Both the position numbers and the translations under genes were made by a program. From positions 1 to 51,902 of IMG/VR virus record IMGVR_UViG_3300046516_001081: a stretch of DNA of 51,902 nucleotides; one strand, written 5' to 3'. Source of the stretch: a virus. The notes under the pieces are model-generated. The model saw only the letters and a list, made by a program, of their open reading frames with translations, was not told the DNA's origin and did no database searches. Of the stretch, positions 5,192-50,912 are shown in pieces (within the stretch, counting starts at the first letter, position 1; every line of letters begins with the position of its first letter).

Positions 5192-7273
5192 TCAGTCGGC
5201 GCCGCGGGGATTGGCGTCCTCAAGCATGCGCGTCAGAACCGCCATGCCCTTCGTGGCAAGGTGCGTCAAATCTTCGATGTTCTCAGAGTAGCCGGCCGGG
5301 AACGCGTCGACCACTTCGGTGCATGCCATGCCCAGGCCGACCGTTTCCACCCGCATGCTCGCGGCGATGTTGCACGCCGCCCGAACGGTGTCGGGACCCA
5401 GCTCACACACGCCATCAGTGACAACCAGCAGGATGTGGCGGGTAGCATTGACGTTCCGCAGATACTCGGCCGCGCCTACGATCGCTTGCGACAGGGGCGT
5501 ATAGGACGTTCCTTGCATGCTCAGGATTGGCCACGCGGCATCCTGCACGCTGTGATCCCAGTCCTTTGCCACGTGTATGTCGGCGCCCCCCATTGCCGCC
5601 CGGGCGGGTTCACTGGGCGTGTGGAAGTGCACAACGCCTACTTTGGCATTGGCGCCCTCGGCCGCGCGCGCGATGTGCCACGCCGCCACCTGCGCCATAT
5701 CCATCCGCGCAATGCCCGTAGCGTAGCTTTGCGAGATATCCGCGCACATTGATCCTGAGCCGTCGATCAATATCAGCAGTGCGGTATCAATGCCGGGAGT
5801 GTCGTCGCGTTTCGAGAATACATCCAGGGCGCCGGTCCGCATGCGTACGATCGCGCGGCGATCAAGGCGCCCGCTCGTTTCATGGTGCGTGCGGCGATGA
5901 ATTTCGCTCGACACCAGCAACCGCGAAATCTGCCCGTGCAACACGCTGTTGCCGGGTAGCTTTTCGTTCAGCTTCGCCGCGGCGCCGGCGTTGTAATGCC
6001 GGTCCTGACGCACAAGCGAAGGGTCCCGAGGTTCAATCCAGGCGCGCGCCGTGTTGAGGCGGTGGGTTTTCGTTTCCCGTGCATGCGCTGCAAGGTCCTT
6101 GATCCCCGCCCGTTCCGCGATTGCTTTGACCATGTCGGCCAAATCGCTTGCCGGGTTGATTGCCTCGCCGTGGCCATCGGCCGCTGCGCCCTCGCTGTCC
6201 TCGCCGTCCTCGCCGTCCTGGGCCTCGCCAGGGGCGCCAGGGCCGTCCTCGCCGTCCTCGCCGTCCTCGCCGTCCTGGGCCTCGCCAGGGGCGCCAGGGC
6301 CGTCCTCGCCGTCCTCGCCGTCCTCGCCGTCCTGGGCCTCGCCAGGGGCGCCAGGGCCGTCCTCGCCGTCCTCGCCGTCCTCGCCGTCCTGGGCCTCGCC
6401 AGGGGCGCCAGGGCCGTCCTCGCCGTCCTCGCCGTCCTGGGCCTCGCCAGGGGCGCCAGGGCCGTCCTCGCCGTCCTCGCCGTCCTGGGCCTCGCCGTCC
6501 TGGGCCTCGCCGTCCTGGGCCTCGCCAGGGGCGCCAGGGCCGTCCTGGGCTTTATCCCCCTGGGCGGCGTTGCCCGTATCCTGCGGCGGTTTGGCGGCTT
6601 GCGCTGCCATGCCGGCTTCCATCGCCACCAGTTCCCGCGCCAAGCGATAGACTGCGAAGGTATCCTTGCACTTTGGCAATGCCTTCAGTGCATGCTCGAC
6701 AAGCGCCCGCACGTTCCGGGACATCGCACCCGCCAGGGGTGCTGCGGTTGGTATCGAATACTTGTTGCGCACCCGGCCCAGGATGCACGCCACATATGGC
6801 GCATCCGCCACCTTGGCGCCGATCACACGCCCGATATTGCGCGCCATGATTGTAGCTTCGTAGTGTTTTTGGGAAGCCAGTCCGGCGAGCACATTGCGCA
6901 ACGCAGGGAAGGCGCCGTTCCTGATTTCCTTCGCTTCAATGCGAACGTCCTCAAGAGCGTTTACCCAGTGCTGCACTCGCGGTCCCGCGCGCACCGCGGC
7001 TTGCCAGGAACCCAGATTAGTATGCAGCACGTGGCAGCACTCGTGCGCGATGTAGGCGACAAGCCTATCCGCCTCGGCGCGCGTTATCACGCTGTCGGGC
7101 GGCAGGCTTGGTAGGTTCATTGTTACGTCAGGATGCTGCCAGGATACGCTGGCGGTTTCGCCGCCATTGCACGTGACAGCGACGCGCCACGGCGCGCGGT
7201 TGTCCGCGCGCCGTGCGAGTATCTTGGTCGCCGTTTCAGTCGCCGCGGCGACCACTTCAATATACAAGGTCAT
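5192..7273 (-). CDS. VWA-domain protein with N-terminal HExxH motif and acidic repeat linker (CobT-like)
   Basis: 693 aa. Three parts are visible. Residues 1-240 contain HECCH (77-81) and, downstream, NALEDVRIE (105-113), a zincin-like layout with a possible Glu third ligand. Residues about 240-365 are a Gly/Glu/Asp-rich linker with six copies of GPGAPGEAQDGE. The rest is a von Willebrand A domain with the MIDAS motif LIDGSGSM starting near residue 502 (Asp504). It starts 5 bp after the AAA ATPase stop, so both are one leftward operon. MoxR/VWA pairs form chaperone-like remodelling machines, and N4-like phages are known to carry an AAA/VWA pair. The substrate here is unknown. Confidence 0.8.
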   Translation of the reverse strand: MTLYIEVVAAATETATKILARRADNRAPWRVAVTCNGGETASVSWQHPDVTMNLPSLPPDSVITRAEADRLVAYIAHECCHVLHTNLGSWQAAVRAGPRVQHWVNALEDVRIEAKEIRNGAFPALRNVLAGLASQKHYEATIMARNIGRVIGAKVADAPYVACILGRVRNKYSIPTAAPLAGAMSRNVRALVEHALKALPKCKDTFAVYRLARELVAMEAGMAAQAAKPPQDTGNAAQGDKAQDGPGAPGEAQDGEAQDGEAQDGEDGEDGPGAPGEAQDGEDGEDGPGAPGEAQDGEDGEDGEDGPGAPGEAQDGEDGEDGEDGPGAPGEAQDGEDGEDGEDGPGAPGEAQDGEDGEDSEGAAADGHGEAINPASDLADMVKAIAERAGIKDLAAHARETKTHRLNTARAWIEPRDPSLVRQDRHYNAGAAAKLNEKLPGNSVLHGQISRLLVSSEIHRRTHHETSGRLDRRAIVRMRTGALDVFSKRDDTPGIDTALLILIDGSGSMCADISQSYATGIARMDMAQVAAWHIARAAEGANAKVGVVHFHTPSEPARAAMGGADIHVAKDWDHSVQDAAWPILSMQGTSYTPLSQAIVGAAEYLRNVNATRHILLVVTDGVCELGPDTVRAACNIAASMRVETVGLGMACTEVVDAFPAGYSENIEDLTHLATKGMAVLTRMLEDANPRGAD
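6189..6550 (-). repeat. In-frame coding tandem repeat (acidic linker of VWA protein)
   Basis: Six copies of a unit coding GPGAPGEAQDGE plus one to three GED/GE(A)QD triplets, built from GTCCTCGCC-type 9-mers on the + strand. All copies stay in frame. Unit length varies in steps of 9 bp, as expected from slippage. It is not a CRISPR array, because there are no unique spacers. Confidence 0.9.
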
Positions 7274-7278
7274 AGCAG

Positions 7279-8802
7279 CTAACTCCGGAACTGCGCGGCG
7301 GCGTCACGGCCGGCTGGCGTTGGGTTTGTCGCCGAGGGGTCCGCGGCCATCGGCGCGCCGTTCAGTGCCGCGGTGACCTGGGCCTTGTCGTAAGCGAGCA
7401 AACATTGCTGCCTCAGTGCCTCGCGATCCTGTTCTTCGGCGCAATTCAGAACGGCCGAAACGAACGCGTCCTCGGCTTCGACACCATCGGTCAGCAGTTC
7501 CGCCCAACTCAACAAGCGGCGAAGCCCAATCCCCGCGGTCAATTGCTGTCCCTCGGCCGCGGCCCTTGTCGTTGCTGCCGCGGCGATCAAGAGCGAAGCC
7601 AGTTCCGGCGTGCATCCGGTATAGGAAACGATGATGTCCCGTTCCTGATCGGCCGGCATATAGTCGAATTTTACGCGCACCCCGAAACGATCAAGAAACG
7701 CCAAATTCAACTTGTTGGTGTCGGTAAAGCCTCTTCTCGCACCGCCGCCAGTTCCGTTTGTGTTGTCGCCGGCGATGAAAATCACGCCTTCGGCAACTTT
7801 CACGCGCCGGCCGGTTTCGCCGACATATAAAACCCTGTTCGCCAACACATTCTGCATGACGAACAAGGCGCCCGGGCGTGCGAGTGAAGGCTCGTCGATC
7901 AGGACAACGCAACCGGGCGTCTGAATTGCGCGCGTCAGCTGGCCATCCTGCCAAGTAACCGCACCATCAGCACTCGGGACCGTCATCCCCACCAGCGTCG
8001 GGGCATCGGTGGCGCTGTCACAGGATATCAGCGCGAAGGGCCTCCCCGTCCGCGCGGCCAACTGCATTGCCCACTCGGTCTTGCCCGTGCCGGGGGGACC
8101 ATACAGGAACGCGTTCCGGCCGCGCGCGATCTGTGTCAACGCGATGGCAGTCTGCGGTTGCGGCCAGATATACCGCACGTTGATCTTGGGGGTGTCAGGG
8201 TGCGTCCCGTTCCAAAGCTTGGTGACGCGTGCGCCTAACGCGCCTTTCACGCCGCAAAGCTTCTTCCAGGTTTCTTCCTTCCCCGTGCAACGCGCGATGT
8301 GCATGGCGGTCCCTGCGGTCCCCGCGGTCCCGGTAGCGCAAGGCGCGGCAGGAACGGGAACTTCGACCGTGATGGTCACCGGCGGCTTGTTTGCCTGCGT
8401 GACCAGCTCGCGCAACCGCGCGTCAAGGGCGCCAAAGCCACCCGACACGATTAGTCCCCGCACCGCGGCAACCTGGGCTTCGATATCCTGGGCCTCGCCG
8501 GCGTCCTGCATCATGGCTTCGGCAGTAGCGTATGCGTCGGCCTCGGCCTTATCGGCTGTTGCCCCGTCCTGGGCGTCCTCGCCGTCCTCGGCGCCGGCGT
8601 CCTCGGCGGGACCGGTTTCGCGAGGGGCCGCGGCGTTCATGGTGGCGATGGCGTCAATGCCCAGGGCGCGCGCCACATCGATCAAGTCAGAAAGGCGAAG
8701 ATCATTGATCTTGCGGCCGGCCAGGATGGCAGCGGCGCCGGGGTGCGCGCGCACCGCGGCGCGCAACGCGTTGCGCCGGATGGCGCTAGGGGTATTGGTC
8801 AT
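7279..8802 (-). CDS. MoxR/CobS-like AAA+ ATPase
   Basis: 507 aa. The frame is open to 8916, but ATG at 8802 has an AAGGACG ribosome-binding site and gives a sensible N-terminus. A helical N-terminal domain (NDLRLSDLIDVARALGI) and an acidic Ala-rich linker precede the ATPase core: Walker A GPPGTGKT (235-242), Walker B VVLIDEPS near residue 300, a DNTNGTGGGARRG sensor/arginine region, and FLDRFG. The order and motifs fit the MoxR group, close in style to CobS. It is the first gene of the leftward pair with the VWA/HExxH protein and should power remodelling of its target. Confidence 0.8.
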   Translation of the reverse strand: MTNTPSAIRRNALRAAVRAHPGAAAILAGRKINDLRLSDLIDVARALGIDAIATMNAAAPRETGPAEDAGAEDGEDAQDGATADKAEADAYATAEAMMQDAGEAQDIEAQVAAVRGLIVSGGFGALDARLRELVTQANKPPVTITVEVPVPAAPCATGTAGTAGTAMHIARCTGKEETWKKLCGVKGALGARVTKLWNGTHPDTPKINVRYIWPQPQTAIALTQIARGRNAFLYGPPGTGKTEWAMQLAARTGRPFALISCDSATDAPTLVGMTVPSADGAVTWQDGQLTRAIQTPGCVVLIDEPSLARPGALFVMQNVLANRVLYVGETGRRVKVAEGVIFIAGDNTNGTGGGARRGFTDTNKLNLAFLDRFGVRVKFDYMPADQERDIIVSYTGCTPELASLLIAAAATTRAAAEGQQLTAGIGLRRLLSWAELLTDGVEAEDAFVSAVLNCAEEQDREALRQQCLLAYDKAQVTAALNGAPMAADPSATNPTPAGRDAAAQFRS

Positions 8803-32579: not shown

Positions 32580-33200
32580 ATGGCCAGCACTCTCTCGGCC
32601 ACTATTGCGCCGCAACCCGAGGGCATAACGGCTCCCGGTTTCCGCGGCGAACTGATCAACGCTGAAAGCAGCGGTCAGAATGTGACTAACCAGGCCGAAG
32701 GTGCCGAGGGCTTCTATCAGATCACCGGCCCCACGTGGCAGGACTTCGCGCCCCGCGCGGGGATCGACCTGAAACAGTATCCCAGCGCGATCAGCGCGCC
32801 TTACGATGTCCAGAGCAAGGTCGCCGACGCGATCCCGATGGGGCGGTGGGGGCCGCGGACGCAGAAAATCCTCGCCGCTAAATATGGCGTGCTCGATCCC
32901 AACCAGCCGATGGGCGTGTTCGCCCAGCGGTTTGGCGCCGCCCCCGGCAGCCCGGGCGCGCCCATGCCCACTGTCCCGGGCGCACCAGTCCCGCAAGCGG
33001 TGGTGCCCCAGCCGCCTGTCCCCGCGGCGCCTGTCCCCGCGGCGCCTGTCCCCGCGGCGCCTGTCCCAGAGGCAGCACCTGTCCCAGCGGCGCCCCTGCC
33101 CCCACCGCCGGCGGTCCCGCAAGCGTCCCTTCCCGGGGCGCCCACCAGTCTGGCTGATGCGTTCGCACAAGCGGCGCGACGGCGGCAGGCGTTCGCGTGA
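32580..33200 (+). CDS. Lytic transglycosylase-like internal protein, 206 aa
   Basis: Residues 21-60 hold the SLT pattern: FRGELINAESSG with catalytic candidate Glu29 in ESSG, and EGFYQITGPTW (43-53), the second hallmark. The length of the catalytic part is about 110 residues; the last 80 are a Pro/Ala repeat (VPAAPVPAAP). It probably cuts peptidoglycan to let the ejection channel pass, as the N-terminal domain of T7 gp16 does. It could also serve as lysis enzyme because no separate endolysin was found. It overlaps the next gene as GTGA. Confidence 0.7.
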   Translation: MASTLSATIAPQPEGITAPGFRGELINAESSGQNVTNQAEGAEGFYQITGPTWQDFAPRAGIDLKQYPSAISAPYDVQSKVADAIPMGRWGPRTQKILAAKYGVLDPNQPMGVFAQRFGAAPGSPGAPMPTVPGAPVPQAVVPQPPVPAAPVPAAPVPAAPVPEAAPVPAAPLPPPPAVPQASLPGAPTSLADAFAQAARRRQAFA

Positions 33201-36200
33201 CGCCATTCGACGATCCCACGCTGACGGGCACGCTGCCCAACGGGGCGACGTTCGACTTCGGCAAACCGGTCACTGCGCCTGCGCCCGCTCCCGCGGCACC
33301 GGCACCCGCCCCTGCGCTCGCCGGCACCTTGCCCAACGGAGCGACGTTCGATTTCGGCCAACCGGCCGCGGCGCCCGCCGCTGCGCCCGCCGCTGCGTCC
33401 GCTGCTGCGCCAGCCCCTGCGCCGACGCCGACGCCGACACCCGCGCCTGCGCTCACCGGCACCTTGCCCAACGGGGCGACGTTCGATTTCGGGGCGCCTG
33501 CTGCGGCGGCCGCCCAGCCAGCCGCGCCGGTCCCTGCGCCTACCGCGGTTCCCGCCCCTGTCCCGGCTGCGGCCCCCGCGCCGGGAGCCGACACCCCCGG
33601 GTTCTTCGGCCGCATCGGGTCAGCGTTCATGCAGGGCGTCAGTGAGCTACCCAGCGACCTGACCGTGCATCCGTTCACGCCTTCCACGGGCGACGAGCAA
33701 CCAGCACCCACTGATTTCGCCGGGGGTGCCGCCTATGGCTTGGGAAAGTCCCTGCCGGCGATCGGTGGCGGCGCGATCGGCGCGATCGGTGGCACTGCGG
33801 TTGGCGGTCCCTTGGGCGGCATCGCCGGCGCTGCTCTCGGGACCTTTGCCGGGATCGTCGCGCCGGAACTGCGGCCGGCTTACCTGGAAGGACTGAAATC
33901 CGGCCTCGACCCCGACGCGGCCGTCAACCACGCGATCACCCAGGCGCTGGCGCAGGGCACGTTCGGCGCGATCACCACGCCCTTGTTCGCGTTTTCGCCC
34001 TTCAAGAGTTTGGTCGGGCGGATGCTGTTCGGCGCGACCGTGACCGGCCCCGCCGTGGGCACCGTTGGCCGCGTTGCGGTCCCGGCCGTCACGGGACAAC
34101 CGCTGCCTTCAGCCGAGGACCTGCTCAAAGGGGCGGCGACCGACGTGGTCACCGGTGCCGTGCTCGCCCCGGCGATGGAGGGCGTGCACGTTACGGCGCA
34201 ACGCGCGGGATTGCTGCCGGAAGAGTCCCCGGCCCTGACCCCAAAGCCGAAGCCGGGGGTCCCAGAGCCGACGCCGGGGGTCCCAGAGCCGACGCCGGGG
34301 GTCCCAGAGCCGACGCTGGTGGCCCCAGAGACGAAGGGGGTGGCCCCAGAGCCGACGCCGGTGGTCCCAGAGCCGACGCCGGTGGTCCCAGGGGTCCAGG
34401 CGACAGAACCGACGCAGCCAGAAGGACAACCGCCAGCGCCGGGAGCACCCGGCACATGGATGTGGAAGTCGAAAGACTACGACCTGCCGGTAACACCAAC
34501 CGGCGAAGAACACCCCGGGCCGGATGGTCGGATTTACGTGCGCGTGCAGGCATCGGACGGCAGCGATACTTTCGTGCCAAAAGACGAGCTTATCTTCACT
34601 CCTGCGACGCCGCAACCGTCCGGGGCAGAGCCGCTTCCAGAGCCGCCACCCGGGCCTGGAGCCGTTCCACCTCCGTCTGAAAACCGTCCTGGCGAGACTG
34701 GAACCGGAGAAGCAACCCCTCCACCCGGCGAAGCCCCGACCACCCTGTCCGCTGGCGTTGATACCGGCGTTGGTGCCGGCGCTGGTGCCAGTCGCGACGC
34801 AGCCGTGCGCCCAGGTGAAACCCCCGCTGCCACCAGTGAGACCACCAACCAGGGAACCCTGGGCGCTGAGCCTCCACCGACATCGTCTGTCTCTCCTCCT
34901 GAACAAAGGACGCCCGTCGATGATCATACACCACCCGTGTCAAATGCTCCTGCCCCTGGACCTGCCAATGTCCCCGCCGGTGAGCGCGTGGTCCCGGGGA
35001 CCGATACCGTCACCCAAACCGGCACGCAGGCCCAACCTGCCGTTGGTGTCGAGGCAGGGCGTGTTGACGCTGGTCAGACTGGCGTCCCAGCCCCTGGGGG
35101 TGAAGCTGGCGGCGGATTAACTCCTGAGACCCGTGCTCGCGTCGACACGCTTGACGGGCAGATCGACCGGCTGAACGCGACGATCGCCGCGTTACCGGCG
35201 GATGCGCCAACCCGGGCCACGCAGGAGGACCAACTCGCCAAGCTGCGCGCGGAGCGGGACCGGCTAGCCGGCACCCCGTCGCCCTCGCTCGCCGTGGCGG
35301 CGGAGCGTCAGACCCCCGCCGAGAAGGAAGCCGTGCAGCGTGCCGCGGCGGGCGTGTCCGAGACAGCCACCGACGCGCCAACCCATCCGCCAACGCCCGA
35401 ACTCGACGCGCGTATCGCCAAGGCGCAGGCGGCGCTCGACAGCACGCCGCGTACGGACGCGATGCACTGGACGCACCTGCGCGACCTGACGCGCCTGGAA
35501 CAGTCCCGGGAGCAGGCCCGCGCGATCGGCCGCGGCGAAGCGGTCGACCCTGCGCTGGCGCTGAACCCCGACCAGCAGGCACGGGTCAACAAGCTCAACA
35601 AACAGATCACCCCGCTTGATGAGCGCGTGCGCGCGCTGGGGGACCTCGAAACCCGCACCCCCGTCCAGGAGCGCGAGTTCGCGGCCAGGCAGGACCAGCT
35701 TGCCAAGCTGCGCCGCGCGCGCGACGCGCTCGTGGGACAGCCGGACGCCGAGAAGATCGCTTCACGGTTCTGGCGCCCCAAACCCAAACCCTTCGTGCCC
35801 CCCAAAGAGCCAACGGGCGAGAAGACGTTCGGGGACTACCAATTCCAGAACGGGGCCAGCGTCTACACCAAGGCGTTCGCCGATGCCGGCTACGACCCGC
35901 GCCTCGCCACCAGCCTGCCTTTGAAAAAGCAGATAGACATTCTGACGCGCCAGATGGGCGACCAGTTCGGGTTCAGGACCGTCAAGATCGCCGCCGATCA
36001 TCCCGGCGGCTACACGGTGATGAACCAGATGCTGAACACCTACCGCGCCATGCACGACATGATGGCGTCGCTCAAGCTGCCGCTGGATCAGGCGAGCCTG
36101 GGGGGCAGGCTGGCGCTGCATATAGAGCCGATGCGCGAGGCCAAGAAAGGCGGCGGGTATTTCGGCATGTACGACCCCAACACCCACTCGCTCCATCTCG

Positions 36201-39200
36201 CTGACGGCGCCAACTCGTTCGCGCACGAGTGGGTGCACGCGCTCGACCACCAGCTCACCACGATAATGGGCACCGACCCTCACATGGAGCACATGTTTTC
36301 CACGTTCACGCGCGTGCGCGGCCTCGACCCGAAAGACGATGTCAACGCCCGCTTCGCCAAGCTCTTGAACACGATCTTCTATGACGAGGGCGCGCTCGCG
36401 CAGCGGAAGATGCAGTTGGACCTGGATGCGCAAAAGGTCGACGCCAAGGGCAAGCCAACCCGAGCCGCGCTGGATGCGCAAGAACGCTTGCGCGCGATCG
36501 AAAGCGGTGCCGACAGCAAGGCGCACATCAAGAGCAGTGAATACCGCAAGATGGCCGAGAGTATCCCCGACCCCTACTGGCGCAGCGAACGGGAATTACT
36601 GGCCCGGGCCGGCGAGGCGTGGGTGGCGCGGCAGATGGAGGTCAACGGCGTCAACCCCCGCGGCGTGGCGATGCCGGACGAAGCCTACGCGCGTGGGCTG
36701 GCCCGGCGGCTACGGGTGACGTTTCCCAAGAACGACGAGCGGGTCGCCATCCATCAGGCGTTCAGCGATCTGTTCGAGGCGCTGCGTGCGCAGCAGATTT
36801 TCGGCTCGCCCGAGGCAGCCCTGTCCCATGATTACGGCCTGTCCGACCCGGCCGGCTACATGCGCGCGGCACGGCTCGCCGGCGGTGCACCGGCGACGCG
36901 CAGCCTCGCCGTGCGGTTCATGGACGTGGGCAACAATTTCCGCAAACTGCAAAGCAGCATGCGGGAGAACGCAATCTATGATCGCGCCCGCCCGGTGTCT
37001 TCGCGGCCCTGGTCGAAGCGCACCGCGCTCACGATCGGGCACATCTTCAACGCCAAGCTGACGGATTTCGACAGCATCATCAAAGCCAACAACCCAGCCG
37101 TGCAGCGGGTATTGCAGAAGCTGCGGGACAAGTTCGGGACCCCGCACGGCAGCGACCATTACGCCGGCGGTGAAGGCTTCGAGCAGGCGTCCCGTGCGCA
37201 GAAAACCAAGTGGGATAACAGGCTGGCGGCGCTCCTGGAGCGGAACGGTCTCCTGGAGAAGATGACCGACCTCGAAAGCGCCATGATCCACCACGGGCTG
37301 ACCACGGGACAGGGGACCTACCAGGGACAGACCATCCCCGCCAACGTGCGCGCGGCGATCGGGGACATAAGGCTGCTGCACAACCAGGTTTTCGACGCAG
37401 CAAAGGGTGCCAAGCTCGATATCGAATACATCGCGCAGCACTTCCCGCGTTTCTACGACCAAGCCAAGATCACCGCGAACCAGGCTAACCGGGCCGGGTT
37501 CGTGCGCGATGCCCATCGCCTCTATCGCTTCATGTTCGACAAGGAGGTCGGTGCCCCCGGGGACAACCCGGACGCGCTGTTGAAGCGATACCGGCAAATG
37601 CCGAAAGCCGAAAAGGGCGTCATCGAGGGTAACAACCCGGGCGTGAACGCGGGCATGAAAAGGCTGGGCAAGAACCTCGCCGAACAGCGCCGGATCGAGG
37701 AGCAACTACGACAAGGCGCGCCCAACGCGGCAGGGCTGCAAGCACGGCTGGCCACGCTGCAAGCCGAAGCCGAGCAACTTGCCCAGACGCACCACGATGC
37801 GATCGGGGACCACGTTGCCGGCGTGGCCAGCAACGACTGGTATGCGCGCGTGCAGATGGGCTACCCCGGTGACTTCGAGAAGATCGGTCCCTCGGGACGC
37901 TTCCTCAACCACCGTTCGCTGCCGCCCGAAGCCGACCAGATCATGAAGAACTGGATGCAGACCGACATCCGCACGGCGCTGCCGGACTACTACAAACAGG
38001 TGGCGCGCAAGGTTGCCTACGCGGAACGCCTCGGCGCCAAGGGCGAGTTCATCGAGGAACAACTCCGACAAGCCGTCGACGCCGGCCTGCACCAGCAGGA
38101 CGCCAACTACATCCGCGGGATCATCCAGCAGATCACCGGCTACGGCGAGAACGGCAACTCCACCCACCGGAGGCTCAGCCCGGTGATGAACGGCCTCAAC
38201 GCCTACGGCGCCACCATGCTGATGCCGCGCTCGATGTGGACCAGCCTGCACGAGTTCGCGGTCCCCGGCCTCGTCACCGGGGACGTGCGCGTTGCCATGA
38301 AGGCGTTCGGCAACCTCGTCGGTGGCATCCTGAAAACCGAGGACGCGCACGGTCGCGCCGAGCTAGCCGACCTGGTGGGGGTGACCAACTCGAAACTGGC
38401 GGAAAGCCTATGGACTTCACGTGTGGGCGATGATTATTCCGACACGCCGAAGATCGCGCACTTCATGCAGCGTTTTTACCGCATGATCGGGCTGAACGCG
38501 CTCACCACCGCGATCCGCCGTGCCAATTTCGGCGCGCTCGACTGGCATTTGGGACAGGTGTCGCGGCACCTCTTGAGCACGGAGCAGGGGCCGATCTGGG
38601 ACCTGCGCCGGGACCGTGCGCGGCGGTTGTTCAACGAGTTGGGTATCTCGCCGCAGATGCATGATCAGTTCGCGCAGTGGAAAGCCGCGCAGGACGGCAT
38701 GCCCGAGTTCAGCGACCTCGCCGATCCGACCAACGGCAACGCGGTCCTCTATGGGCGCGCCATGCGCACGCTGTCCGACTGGTCCTCGCAGTCGCCCTAC
38801 AAGGGCGATGTCCCTGCCGCCGTGGAGAACCCCTGGGGCCGGATGATCTTCCAGCTTCAGCACTACAATTACGCATTCATGCGCAACGTGCTCGATCCGG
38901 CGGTCGCGAACATGGAGCGGGATTACAAGTTCATGCGCGACCGCGCCGCGGGACAGGGCGCGGGCTGGCTGTCCCAGCGCATGCACGGGATCGGCGGCCT
39001 CGCATACTCGGGCGCGGGCTTCGCCTCCGCGGCAGGCGGGCTGCTCATGTCCTCGCTGGCGACCTCGATGATCCGCGAAGCTCTCTTCAACGGGGACAAG
39101 TGGGACGAGCACAAGGAGAAGGGCGATTTCGGTGATTGGCTTCAGGGGCTGGCGATGCAGCGATCGGGCCTCACCGGCACGCTCGATCCGATCGTGCAGC

Positions 39201-39871
39201 TGGTGAACAATCTCCGCTACAACGCCGACCTCGCCACGCTCACGTCGGGCGCGTCGATTTCCTTCATCGGCAATCAGGTGGTGGACCTGCTGCGCGCCAC
39301 GGCGAACGCCTTCGACCCGGAGGCCCCGGAGACGAACACCAAGGCGCACGACGCGACCAAGAGTTTTTACAATCTGTTCGGCATCCCGGCGATGGCCTAC
39401 ATGGCCAACGGCGTGACCCTTGCCGGCGTGCCTTTGGTCTCGCCGGCGGCGAGTTTCGCGTTCCAGAAACTAACGACGGCACAGACTGCAAACCGGTTCG
39501 CCGATGTGGTGACGGGCAAGAAGGGGACCAAGCTGCCGGCGCCTGAACCGGAGGGCGCACTCGGTCCCAGCAAGGCGGAACTCAGTGGCGGTGATGACCT
39601 CGAACTCGGCCCCAGCGCAGAGGAGCTAAGCGGCACTCCCAGCGACAAAGAGAAGACCGGCGGCATTGTCGGCGGCAGCGTGCCCTGGGGGCTGCTCGAC
39701 GATTTCATCGCCCCGGGGTGGAAGGTTATGCAGCCCGCGCTGGGATCGCTGCCCGGTCCCCTGAAACTTGGTGCCGTTGGCGCCGCCGGCGTTGCCGCGG
39801 CGGGCAAGTTCCTGTCCAATATGGCGCCCTACCGCAACGCGCCCCCGCCGGCCAAGAAAGCCGCGCCGTAG
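33197..39871 (+). CDS. Giant internal virion / polyvalent-type protein with zincin motif, 2224 aa
   Basis: GTG start overlapping the transglycosylase stop. The N-terminus has three copies of L(T/A)GTLPNGATFDFG (near residues 9-22, 41-54, 86-99) separated by Ala/Pro linkers. A Gly/Ala-rich hydrophobic region (about 180-225) may touch membranes. VPEPTPG repeats follow. Around residue 1010 SFAHEWVHALDHQ contains HExxH (1010-1014), as in metallopeptidase domains of large polyvalent phage proteins. The rest is mostly helical, with another hydrophobic Gly-rich stretch near 1935. It is the end of the virion block and probably the main ejection protein. Confidence 0.7.
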   Translation: MTPFDDPTLTGTLPNGATFDFGKPVTAPAPAPAAPAPAPALAGTLPNGATFDFGQPAAAPAAAPAAASAAAPAPAPTPTPTPAPALTGTLPNGATFDFGAPAAAAAQPAAPVPAPTAVPAPVPAAAPAPGADTPGFFGRIGSAFMQGVSELPSDLTVHPFTPSTGDEQPAPTDFAGGAAYGLGKSLPAIGGGAIGAIGGTAVGGPLGGIAGAALGTFAGIVAPELRPAYLEGLKSGLDPDAAVNHAITQALAQGTFGAITTPLFAFSPFKSLVGRMLFGATVTGPAVGTVGRVAVPAVTGQPLPSAEDLLKGAATDVVTGAVLAPAMEGVHVTAQRAGLLPEESPALTPKPKPGVPEPTPGVPEPTPGVPEPTLVAPETKGVAPEPTPVVPEPTPVVPGVQATEPTQPEGQPPAPGAPGTWMWKSKDYDLPVTPTGEEHPGPDGRIYVRVQASDGSDTFVPKDELIFTPATPQPSGAEPLPEPPPGPGAVPPPSENRPGETGTGEATPPPGEAPTTLSAGVDTGVGAGAGASRDAAVRPGETPAATSETTNQGTLGAEPPPTSSVSPPEQRTPVDDHTPPVSNAPAPGPANVPAGERVVPGTDTVTQTGTQAQPAVGVEAGRVDAGQTGVPAPGGEAGGGLTPETRARVDTLDGQIDRLNATIAALPADAPTRATQEDQLAKLRAERDRLAGTPSPSLAVAAERQTPAEKEAVQRAAAGVSETATDAPTHPPTPELDARIAKAQAALDSTPRTDAMHWTHLRDLTRLEQSREQARAIGRGEAVDPALALNPDQQARVNKLNKQITPLDERVRALGDLETRTPVQEREFAARQDQLAKLRRARDALVGQPDAEKIASRFWRPKPKPFVPPKEPTGEKTFGDYQFQNGASVYTKAFADAGYDPRLATSLPLKKQIDILTRQMGDQFGFRTVKIAADHPGGYTVMNQMLNTYRAMHDMMASLKLPLDQASLGGRLALHIEPMREAKKGGGYFGMYDPNTHSLHLADGANSFAHEWVHALDHQLTTIMGTDPHMEHMFSTFTRVRGLDPKDDVNARFAKLLNTIFYDEGALAQRKMQLDLDAQKVDAKGKPTRAALDAQERLRAIESGADSKAHIKSSEYRKMAESIPDPYWRSERELLARAGEAWVARQMEVNGVNPRGVAMPDEAYARGLARRLRVTFPKNDERVAIHQAFSDLFEALRAQQIFGSPEAALSHDYGLSDPAGYMRAARLAGGAPATRSLAVRFMDVGNNFRKLQSSMRENAIYDRARPVSSRPWSKRTALTIGHIFNAKLTDFDSIIKANNPAVQRVLQKLRDKFGTPHGSDHYAGGEGFEQASRAQKTKWDNRLAALLERNGLLEKMTDLESAMIHHGLTTGQGTYQGQTIPANVRAAIGDIRLLHNQVFDAAKGAKLDIEYIAQHFPRFYDQAKITANQANRAGFVRDAHRLYRFMFDKEVGAPGDNPDALLKRYRQMPKAEKGVIEGNNPGVNAGMKRLGKNLAEQRRIEEQLRQGAPNAAGLQARLATLQAEAEQLAQTHHDAIGDHVAGVASNDWYARVQMGYPGDFEKIGPSGRFLNHRSLPPEADQIMKNWMQTDIRTALPDYYKQVARKVAYAERLGAKGEFIEEQLRQAVDAGLHQQDANYIRGIIQQITGYGENGNSTHRRLSPVMNGLNAYGATMLMPRSMWTSLHEFAVPGLVTGDVRVAMKAFGNLVGGILKTEDAHGRAELADLVGVTNSKLAESLWTSRVGDDYSDTPKIAHFMQRFYRMIGLNALTTAIRRANFGALDWHLGQVSRHLLSTEQGPIWDLRRDRARRLFNELGISPQMHDQFAQWKAAQDGMPEFSDLADPTNGNAVLYGRAMRTLSDWSSQSPYKGDVPAAVENPWGRMIFQLQHYNYAFMRNVLDPAVANMERDYKFMRDRAAGQGAGWLSQRMHGIGGLAYSGAGFASAAGGLLMSSLATSMIREALFNGDKWDEHKEKGDFGDWLQGLAMQRSGLTGTLDPIVQLVNNLRYNADLATLTSGASISFIGNQVVDLLRATANAFDPEAPETNTKAHDATKSFYNLFGIPAMAYMANGVTLAGVPLVSPAASFAFQKLTTAQTANRFADVVTGKKGTKLPAPEPEGALGPSKAELSGGDDLELGPSAEELSGTPSDKEKTGGIVGGSVPWGLLDDFIAPGWKVMQPALGSLPGPLKLGAVGAAGVAAAGKFLSNMAPYRNAPPPAKKAAP

Positions 39872-49670: not shown

Positions 49671-50019
49671 AGTGGCGCGGCGGCTGCGGCGATCGGTCGC
49701 CACAGTCGCGCGCCTGCGTCGCGCCGGCGCTCTTGATTGGGTGCCTGGACGTCCTGTCATGATCCCGGAAGAAAGTCTCAACCTATGGCTGTCCCGCAGT
49801 ATCGCTCACGCCCATCTGTCCTCAGTCATCGCCGCAGCCCGCAAAACAAGACGGCAATCAAAAGCAGCGATCCGGTCGTCCGAACTGCAAAACTCGTTCA
49901 GGCAGGAACGGGCTATTGGCAAATCGTCTATAGCGAGCCGCGCGCAGGCCAAAAAGGCTGGCGGTCCCGCACCCTCTCGACACGCACCCAGGACCGCGCC
50001 GAAGCCCAGCGCGAGCTAG
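49639..50019 (+). CDS. xis: Excisionase / MerR-like HTH protein, 126 aa
   Basis: LLTQSEVARRLRRSVATVARLRRAGALDWVPGRPVMIPEESLNLWL is the HTH_17 pattern of excisionases; GGGGGAC precedes the ATG. The frame continues after about residue 60 and overlaps the integrase in another frame by 235 bp. That tail is basic but looks like low-quality code. It may therefore be a real extension, or the product may be only the HTH part after an unseen change. Confidence 0.65.
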   Translation: MTQPRLLTQSEVARRLRRSVATVARLRRAGALDWVPGRPVMIPEESLNLWLSRSIAHAHLSSVIAAARKTRRQSKAAIRSSELQNSFRQERAIGKSSIASRAQAKKAGGPAPSRHAPRTAPKPSAS

Positions 50020-50912
50020 ACCATTTTCTTGACAAGGCGATCGAGAAATCCCAACCCACGGTCCCGCAGGACCAGCTAACCGTCGAAGAGCTGTGCCAGG
50101 ACTATCTGGCGCACCAGCCGCGGCAGCGCATTGTGCTGGCGCCGGTGCGCGTGCACCTGGGCGCGATGCGGGTAAAGGACCTGAACCTGGATTTGATACG
50201 CAACTACCGCGCCGCGCACTCCGAATACAAAGACAGTTCGATGCGGCGCCGGCTGGGGGCGCTCAAGACCGTGCTTAGCCACGCCTATAAAACGGGGCGG
50301 TTGACCGCGGTGCCCTATATCGAGTTGCCGCCGGTGGGGGCGCCAAGAGCGTTGTGCCTGACCCACGAGCAACTGGCGCTGGTCCGGGACAAAGTGGTCG
50401 AGAACGAAGTCCGCAACCCCGGTCCTCACGCTCACGCGCTCACGTTGTTCGTGTTTCTCGCCTCGACTTTTGGCGCGCGACGCGAAGCCATCCGGGACCT
50501 CACCTGGGACCGGGTGGATTTCACGAACCGCGTAGTGGACTTCAAAACTCCCGGTCGCATTGTAACCAAGAAACGCCGCGCGACTGTGCCGATGAGCGAC
50601 GAGGCGCTGACGTTTTTGCGCGAAGCGCATCTCAAGGCGGGGTGCCCTGCGACGGGCAGAGTGATCAACCTCCGCGACAACGCCCTGAAGTATCAGTATC
50701 AAAAGTTTTTCAAATCCATAGGCTTCGAGTGGTGCACCTCGCATGTGTTCAGGCACACGGTTGCAACCCACATGCTGCAAGCCGGCAAAAGCATTTACAA
50801 AGTGGCGTTGATGCTGGCCGACACGGTGCGGACGATCGAGACGACATATGCCCACGTGCCGCCGGCGGATTTGCGAGAGGTAGTCGAAGATCGAAAACTG
50901 GGGTGGGCGTGA
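49785..50912 (+). CDS. int: Tyrosine recombinase (integrase), copy 2, complete
   Basis: 375 aa. ATG 49785 with GAAGAAAG upstream; the longer frame to 49737 lacks support. N-terminal arm segment YWQIVYSEPRAGQKGWRSRTL, then core-binding helices, then the catalytic half with Arg232/233 (GARREAI), a TKKRRA lysine hairpin, HVFRHT (His320, Arg323), and Tyr355 in TTYAHV. The LGH box is LAD. It overlaps the excisionase and is followed by small accessory genes. It would catalyse integration together with the excisionase's control. Copy 1 at the window start is a close, diverged relative. Confidence 0.93.
   Translation: MAVPQYRSRPSVLSHRRSPQNKTAIKSSDPVVRTAKLVQAGTGYWQIVYSEPRAGQKGWRSRTLSTRTQDRAEAQRELDHFLDKAIEKSQPTVPQDQLTVEELCQDYLAHQPRQRIVLAPVRVHLGAMRVKDLNLDLIRNYRAAHSEYKDSSMRRRLGALKTVLSHAYKTGRLTAVPYIELPPVGAPRALCLTHEQLALVRDKVVENEVRNPGPHAHALTLFVFLASTFGARREAIRDLTWDRVDFTNRVVDFKTPGRIVTKKRRATVPMSDEALTFLREAHLKAGCPATGRVINLRDNALKYQYQKFFKSIGFEWCTSHVFRHTVATHMLQAGKSIYKVALMLADTVRTIETTYAHVPPADLREVVEDRKLGWA
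49960..50906 (+). repeat. Long direct repeat with 1-947 (paralogous integrase sequence)
   Basis: Bases 1-947 match 49960-50906 with no indel. The 5' 250 bp are nearly identical; the region after about 370 is patchier, with some blocks near-identical (around 721-810) and others clearly diverged. Same orientation, 49.96 kb apart. Confidence 0.9.

Follow-up and report, generated by a model that had tools for sequence, protein, structure and literature searches.

We describe here two adjacent genes on the minus strand of a 51,902-base virus record (IMG/VR IMGVR_UViG_3300046516_001081; the whole record is the window referred to below). One encodes a 507-residue MoxR/CobS-type AAA+ ATPase and the other a 693-residue CobT-like protein that joins a zincin-like N-terminal domain to a C-terminal VWA domain. 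The HExxH-type site of the N-terminal domain and the metal ion-dependent adhesion site (MIDAS) of the VWA domain are both invariant in our alignments of homologues, and the HExxH site is absent from genuine cobaltochelatase CobT. From these data we infer, at a probability of about 0.6, that the products of the two genes form a metallopeptidase-remodelling machine driven by ATP, and with it zinc binding, peptidase activity, the geometry of the complex, its target and its timing. Because the preserved zinc-protease site is absent from the true B12 CobT, the sequences favour reading the pair as a protein-remodelling protease of the phage over reading it as a vitamin gene.

Conservation of the N-terminal HExxH site

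An earlier sequence-only reading of this DNA had recognised a MoxR-type ATPase, a VWA partner and, within the latter, HECCH, NALEDVRIE and six repeat units, and each of these is present as claimed (Table 1). The ATPase has AAA_5 and CbbQ_C matches, with Walker A and Walker B motifs both intact. The VWA domain, which Pfam alone leaves sub-threshold (VWA_2, E 4e-4), is confirmed by alignments and fold, and its MIDAS pattern (DxSxS...D) is invariant in 59 sequences.

A single HExxH occurrence is weak evidence, since protein composition alone leads one to expect about 0.05 occurrences, and it is the invariance of the motif in 94 homologous N-domains that sets chance aside. Across these 94 domains the only invariant positions are H77, E78, H81, D109 and E113. 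In the 59 full-length proteins E108 joins them, and the other invariant positions are confined to D504, S506, S508, M509, D620 and two glycines. Five public homologues (counting the window protein itself), which share 20-31% identity with it, all keep H77, E78, H81, E108, D109 and E113.

The earlier reading had made conservation of the His and Glu residues the point on which it could be refuted, and homologues do conserve them. Two scans with VWA-derived patterns only, blind to the N-domain, yielded 86 non-redundant complete viral homologues, 85 of which have HExxH followed some 30 residues on by EDxxxE, the remaining one having HExxxH. When the search patterns came from the AAA protein alone, the N-domain could be read in 16 VWA partners: HExxH is present in 13 and HEAAGH in one, while one (L036) is degenerate and one (L029) lacks the motif. 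Eight loci from a whole-protein search matched through the acidic repeat only, with no N-domain or VWA profile match, and were discarded as low-complexity. A minority of relatives, on separate tree branches, carry HExxxH in place of HExxH (HEAAGH in L037, HEIVCH in L193, HEAGGH in L275); we no longer count these as motif losses and hold them as a separate class, because HExxxH is used by the family M49 peptidases (dipeptidyl peptidase III).

The N-domain, modelled with AlphaFold2 (AF2) as residues 1-229 alone from the 94 sequences, is predicted with high confidence (predicted local distance difference test score, pLDDT, 95.9; predicted template modelling score, pTM, 0.91). The model comprises helix 4-22, strands 30-34, 42-46 and 49-53, helix 65-84, helix 98-119 and more helices thereafter, so that the invariant HExxH lies in the helix at 65-84 and the invariant D109 and E113 in that at 98-119, in keeping with the sequence pattern of zincins. 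Zincins account for 13 of the top 50 PDB matches to the domain, all weak (M61, IrrE, jannalysin/abylysin/selecase, SprT, BlaR1 and MATCAP), and in BFVD viral CobT/VWFA proteins are among the matches at E<=1e-3, SprT-like and M48/M61 proteins ranking beneath them. The presumed catalytic Glu, E78, is as fixed as the presumed ligands, which favours chemistry over metal storage. The earlier suggestion of a possible active zincin is upheld for the site, which behaves as a preserved zincin site, and for the predicted fold; the activity itself is what we infer.

Several observations weigh against this interpretation. The motif has been lost in some relatives (L036 and L196) and the whole domain is absent from L029, which means that the zincin site is not indispensable to the machine. 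The VWA search patterns were derived from HExxH-bearing members, and degenerate lineages may therefore be undersampled. No solved structure in the PDB matches the N-domain at E<=1e-3. Finally, the window group has a tail-fibre-like gene on the side of the cassette opposite its replication-type neighbour.

Comparison with cobaltochelatase CobT and phage relatives

Our sample of genuine CobT was drawn from 80 loci found with a query from the solved CobT chain and from PF06213 matches, present in 94 of the 299 genomes searched in the same phylum, where a clear E-value gap separates strong from weak matches; it covers Pseudomonadota only, mainly Hyphomicrobiales. HExxH is present in the N-domain of none of these proteins (0/118). 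The window-family and true CobT N-domains are nevertheless homologous over their full length (hhalign 97.5%, E 7e-12), and CobST of the alphaproteobacterial cobaltochelatase resembles the window pair in its three-part architecture with an acidic linker and in its homologous N-domain and VWA domain. CobT differs in having S-x-A-L-[RK] instead of HExxH and EQ instead of ED, the Asp of the acidic helix being replaced mostly by Gln.

The sequence-only reading had also drawn on the CobS/CobT resemblance to raise metal handling as an alternative function. The resemblance proves to be true homology, but the metal-chelatase alternative is weakened, both because HExxH is missing from all 118 CobT proteins and because the window pair misses the CobS/CobT cut-offs. 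The AAA protein scores 53.9 bits against the CobS equivalog TIGR01650, below the curated cut-off of 558.55, and the VWA protein has no NCBIfam match; on the CobT model TIGR01651 (cut-off 759.05) a genuine CobT reaches 986, and even the phage CRP-810 protein, which is more CobT-like, reaches 178.7. Searches across the virus record for CobT (PF06213) and CobN (PF02514) gave no match; the host may encode a CobN.

A tree of the VWA domain only places 26 cellular CobT and CobT-like proteins in a single clade (support 100), nested in a set that also holds HExxH-bearing viral lineages (support 93), and absence of the motif needs 3 changes, compared with 24.5 in shuffles. Since this is a quick, unrooted tree with long branches, loss of HExxH in the cellular CobT line is the simplest reading of the sequences, not a proof. 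Cellular CobT-like proteins without HExxH in L186-L190, with an AAA-like gene adjacent, are sister to true CobT in the tree; the CobT-like gene of L188 adjoins one that, by eye, resembles sulfoacetaldehyde acetyltransferase. Cellular copies with HExxH (L191, L192, L194 and L195) adjoin genes that by eye resemble those of integrating elements. In these four loci and in L012 the HExxH-type CobT-like proteins are found in elements near ssb/bet/exonuclease-like genes, and the CobT-like gene is preceded by a DUF3150 or DUF3150-like gene (by eye in the first four). In a Salmonella genomic island a DUF3150 gene beside the CobT-like gene is confirmed by profile. A literature search on SXT-like relatives found nothing useful.

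The same gene pair, homologous along its length, occurs as viral CobS/CobT in Mae-Yong1326-1, CRP-810, Cobavirinae and haloarchaeal tailed viruses; Mae-Yong1326-1 also has the RecA-like ATPase neighbour in common with the window, and the haloarchaeal proteins the N-domain fold. These phage and archaeal-virus proteins have been read as cobaltochelatase (PMC8651126, PMC9503304), and the 'peptidase' label has been called a mistake (PMC8651126). Our results suggest that, for the N-domain, 'peptidase' is the better supported of the two labels. The cobT of CRP-810 (our locus L013) has been described as the enzyme that activates the lower ligand in cobamide synthesis (PMC11288001); that enzyme is a different protein, sharing its name with cobaltochelatase CobT. 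In the T4-like cyanophage S-ShM2, the 'peptidase' encoded beside cobS has a homologous N-domain (hhalign 97.3%) in which HEVGH and VIEDARVE align with the window motifs, although the gene order is reversed and a glutaredoxin gene stands between the two.

Phage N4 gp24/gp25 (Schitoviridae; PF13203 and PF09967) likewise form an AAA gene followed by a metallopeptidase-VWA gene. The earlier reading had taken HExxH as a feature distinguishing the window protein from this pair, a contrast that fails because gp25 itself carries HELWH and WNYACDIYIN, and Pfam assigns it DUF2201_N ('Putative metallopeptidase domain') together with the VWA-like DUF2201. HExxH is invariant among gp25 homologues, eight diverse examples of which keep H75, E76, H79, N97, D101 and N105, the last three with the same Asn/Asp/+4 spacing as N105, D109 and E113 of the window protein. 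N4 gp25 differs in its length (380 residues) and in having no long acidic linker. Of the two alignments that the reading had proposed, the one with CobT reveals a homologous N-domain, but profile comparison of N4 gp25 with the window-family N-domain is not significant (probability 6.7%), and PF13203 has no match in the window protein. Common descent is therefore not shown: what gp25 has in common with the window family is confined to register and architecture, and we rejected it as a direct homologue by profile. Three Schitoviridae gp25 homologues (L368, L369 and L371; PF13203/PF09967, aligned full length, invariant HExxH) are annotated 'HNH endonuclease'.

Structure and genomic setting of the cassette

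The full-length AF2 model, made with 59 homologues, is confident at both ends and disordered in the middle, where most of residues 241-366 fall below pLDDT 50. The repeat GPGAPGEAQDG occurs in exactly six copies, starting at residues 245, 271, 287, 306, 325 and 344, and in the DNA forms a tandem array of ~57-bp units at about 6190-6516. Its role as a conserved functional unit can be ruled out, the linkers of close relatives being built from other units; as judged from these sequences, it is a local expansion of a variable disordered linker present across the family.

Table 1. Features of the two-gene cassette, in window coordinates
Feature	Position	Strand	Basis
MoxR/CobS-type AAA+ ATPase gene, 507 aa	7279..8802	-	Pfam AAA_5 E 6.5e-19, CbbQ_C 7e-9; PHROG 249 E 6e-51
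AAA protein Walker A GPPGTGKT	8077..8100	-	G235, G238, G240, K241, T242 invariant in AAA alignment
AAA protein Walker B VVLIDE	7891..7908	-	D303, E304 invariant in AAA alignment
CobT-like putative metallopeptidase-VWA gene, 693 aa	5192..7273	-	Open reading frame; alignment of 59 full-length homologues; AF2 full-length model
N-terminal zincin-like domain, residues 1-227	6593..7273	-	AF2 pLDDT 95.9, pTM 0.91; 94-sequence alignment
HECCH, residues 77-81; presumed zinc ligands H77, H81, presumed catalytic E78	7031..7045	-	Invariant in 94 N-domains
NALEDVRIE, residues 105-113; presumed third ligand among E108/D109/E113	6935..6961	-	D109, E113 invariant, N105, E108 near-invariant (94 N-domains)
Disordered acidic linker, about residues 228-370	6164..6592	-	AF2 pLDDT <50 over most of 241-366; 35% D+E, 1% K+R
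Six GPGAPGEAQDG-type repeat units, residues 245-361	6191..6541	-	Sequence
C-terminal region, residues 379-690: helical/hairpin part, then VWA domain	5204..6139	-	Foldseek best matches NorD in NorQD complexes, Rea1/MDN1 MIDAS
MIDAS DGSGS, residues 504-508; distal Asp D620 at 5414-5416	5750..5764	-	D504, S506, S508, D620 invariant in 59 sequences

The record encodes a terminase, a family-A DNA polymerase, a DUF2800/Enc34-type single-strand-binding module and two integrase genes, and the cassette is flanked by a replication-type module and a structural module, both on the plus strand. The AAA gene comes first (ATG at 8802, stop at 7279) and the VWA gene follows 5 nucleotides downstream across the junction TAG-CTGCT-ATG, each ATG being preceded by a purine-rich, ribosome-binding-like site (AAGGA and CGGAG, respectively). 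This pairing is conserved, with a CobS-like AAA gene adjoining the CobT-like gene in 40 of 50 loci.

An AAA_25/RecA-like replication ATPase gene converges on the cassette in some 20 close relatives, as well as in Mae-Yong1326-1 and the distant locus L317. Most of the 110 neighbouring proteins that we surveyed from 33 loci match nothing; the PHROG families named among them are a DNA-binding protein, primase/helicase, DNA polymerase, exonuclease, DnaB-like helicase, integrase and one transcriptional regulator, with no virion family. The S-ShM2 pair sits between gp46 and gp45/44/62, the Cobavirinae cassette ahead of DNA polymerase and primase/helicase, the Salmonella island pair near bet and ssb, and N4 gp24/25 ahead of a dCTP deaminase gene. 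These neighbourhoods favour a DNA-stage role and say nothing direct about timing, the replication- and integration-module settings being compatible with an early role such as the earlier reading had suggested.

The two integrase genes of the record (174-977 and 49737-50912, both plus strand) encode tyrosine integrases that are clearly similar, not identical, and lie at opposite ends; the former appears N-terminally short (267 residues, the latter having 391). A large polyvalent protein of 2224 residues encoded at 33197-39871 on the plus strand contains LPD1 (PF18796) and a further zincin-type motif, HEWVHALDH.

Possible mechanism, alternative roles and implications

The closest solved folds of the VWA region are NorD and Rea1/midasin (MDN1), whose VWA domains dock on AAA+ rings, and the helical/hairpin part that precedes the window VWA domain is probably placed like the NorD finger. 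NorD, too, has a MoxR partner, NorQ. In the parts of the NorQD cryo-electron microscopy study that we draw on (PMC13036017), the VWA finger sits in the AAA pore and ATP-driven rotation is proposed to stretch the linker between VWA and N-domain; the job of the complex is iron insertion into nitric oxide reductase, and those parts describe no HExxH domain. Carrying over these mechanics by analogy, the CobS-like protein would form a MoxR-type hexamer on which the VWA domain of the CobT-like protein would dock, its finger probably in the pore. The MIDAS metal would hold the target, while the long disordered acidic linker would tether the N-terminal zincin domain to this AAA-driven VWA/MIDAS clamp, allowing the zincin to cleave the target under the pull or twist that ATP hydrolysis supplies. 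Judged by its gene neighbourhood, the machine would most likely act on a protein, whether of host or phage, that serves DNA replication, recombination or early takeover, and less likely on one of the virion or the B12 pathway.

The same MoxR-VWA-metallopeptidase machine might instead help to assemble virions by processing structural proteins or folding them. Group 2.2 jumbo phages encode a MoxR AAA+ protein and a vWA protein that has a metallopeptidase fused at its N terminus (Iyer et al. 2021, PMC7824862). As far as the description there goes, gene pair, domain order and the predicted remodelling or cochaperone function are as here, and a virion-assembly role is proposed by analogy with a MoxR-VWA pair of archaeal virus tail assembly; the sections used here do not mention CobT, and the window is a ~52-kb integrase-bearing phage. 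Such a role would suit the tail-fibre-like gene next to the window cassette, but we consider it unlikely, since transcription of the cassette opposes the structural module of the window and the neighbours in S-ShM2, Cobavirinae and the Salmonella island are replication and recombination genes.

That the HExxH/acidic site merely delivers metal, or is structural, in a MoxR-VWA machine for metal insertion without peptidase activity is improbable. NorQD and other MoxR/VWA systems do insert metals (PMC13036017), but E78, which simple metal binding by two His would not need, is as invariant as the ligands, and CobT, a known metal inserter, lacks the HExxH site. Very improbable, finally, is the proposal made for archaeal and bacterial tailed viruses (PMC8651126) and repeated for Mae-Yong1326-1 that viral CobST are cobaltochelatase subunits that join host CobN and boost cobalamin supply as auxiliary metabolic genes: both CobT domains are truly homologous to the viral protein, but HExxH is kept only on the viral side of our comparison with true CobT, the window pair and the CRP-810 CobT-like protein fall under the curated cut-offs, the record has no CobN, and the named neighbours are replication genes, not cofactor genes. 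An anti-phage defence pair was considered and dropped, PADLOC returning only weak P-loop matches.

The architecture of an AAA+ ATPase paired with a putative metallopeptidase-VWA protein is already known from N4 gp25 and jumbo phages, and the window genes are new members. What seems to be new is the sequence evidence that the phage 'CobT' class keeps an intact zincin site, contrary to its published annotation as an auxiliary metabolic gene. Viral cobS and cobT are counted in environmental virology as cobalamin-boosting auxiliary metabolic genes, and since phage 'CobT' keeps what cobaltochelatase CobT lacks, this common annotation becomes testable. We propose tentatively, at somewhat less than even odds, that the widespread viral 'cobST' as a class are ATP-driven metalloproteases of the DNA stage of infection rather than B12 genes, and that cellular CobT is a relative in which the protease site was lost. 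If the N-domain is an active protease, counts of these auxiliary metabolic genes and the conclusions drawn from them would need revising. A common mechanism would then be suggested for otherwise unrelated viruses (N4-like, T4-like cyanophages, jumbo and haloarchaeal) and integrating elements, and the metal-chelatase subunit would be a relative of the protease partner that has lost its catalytic site.

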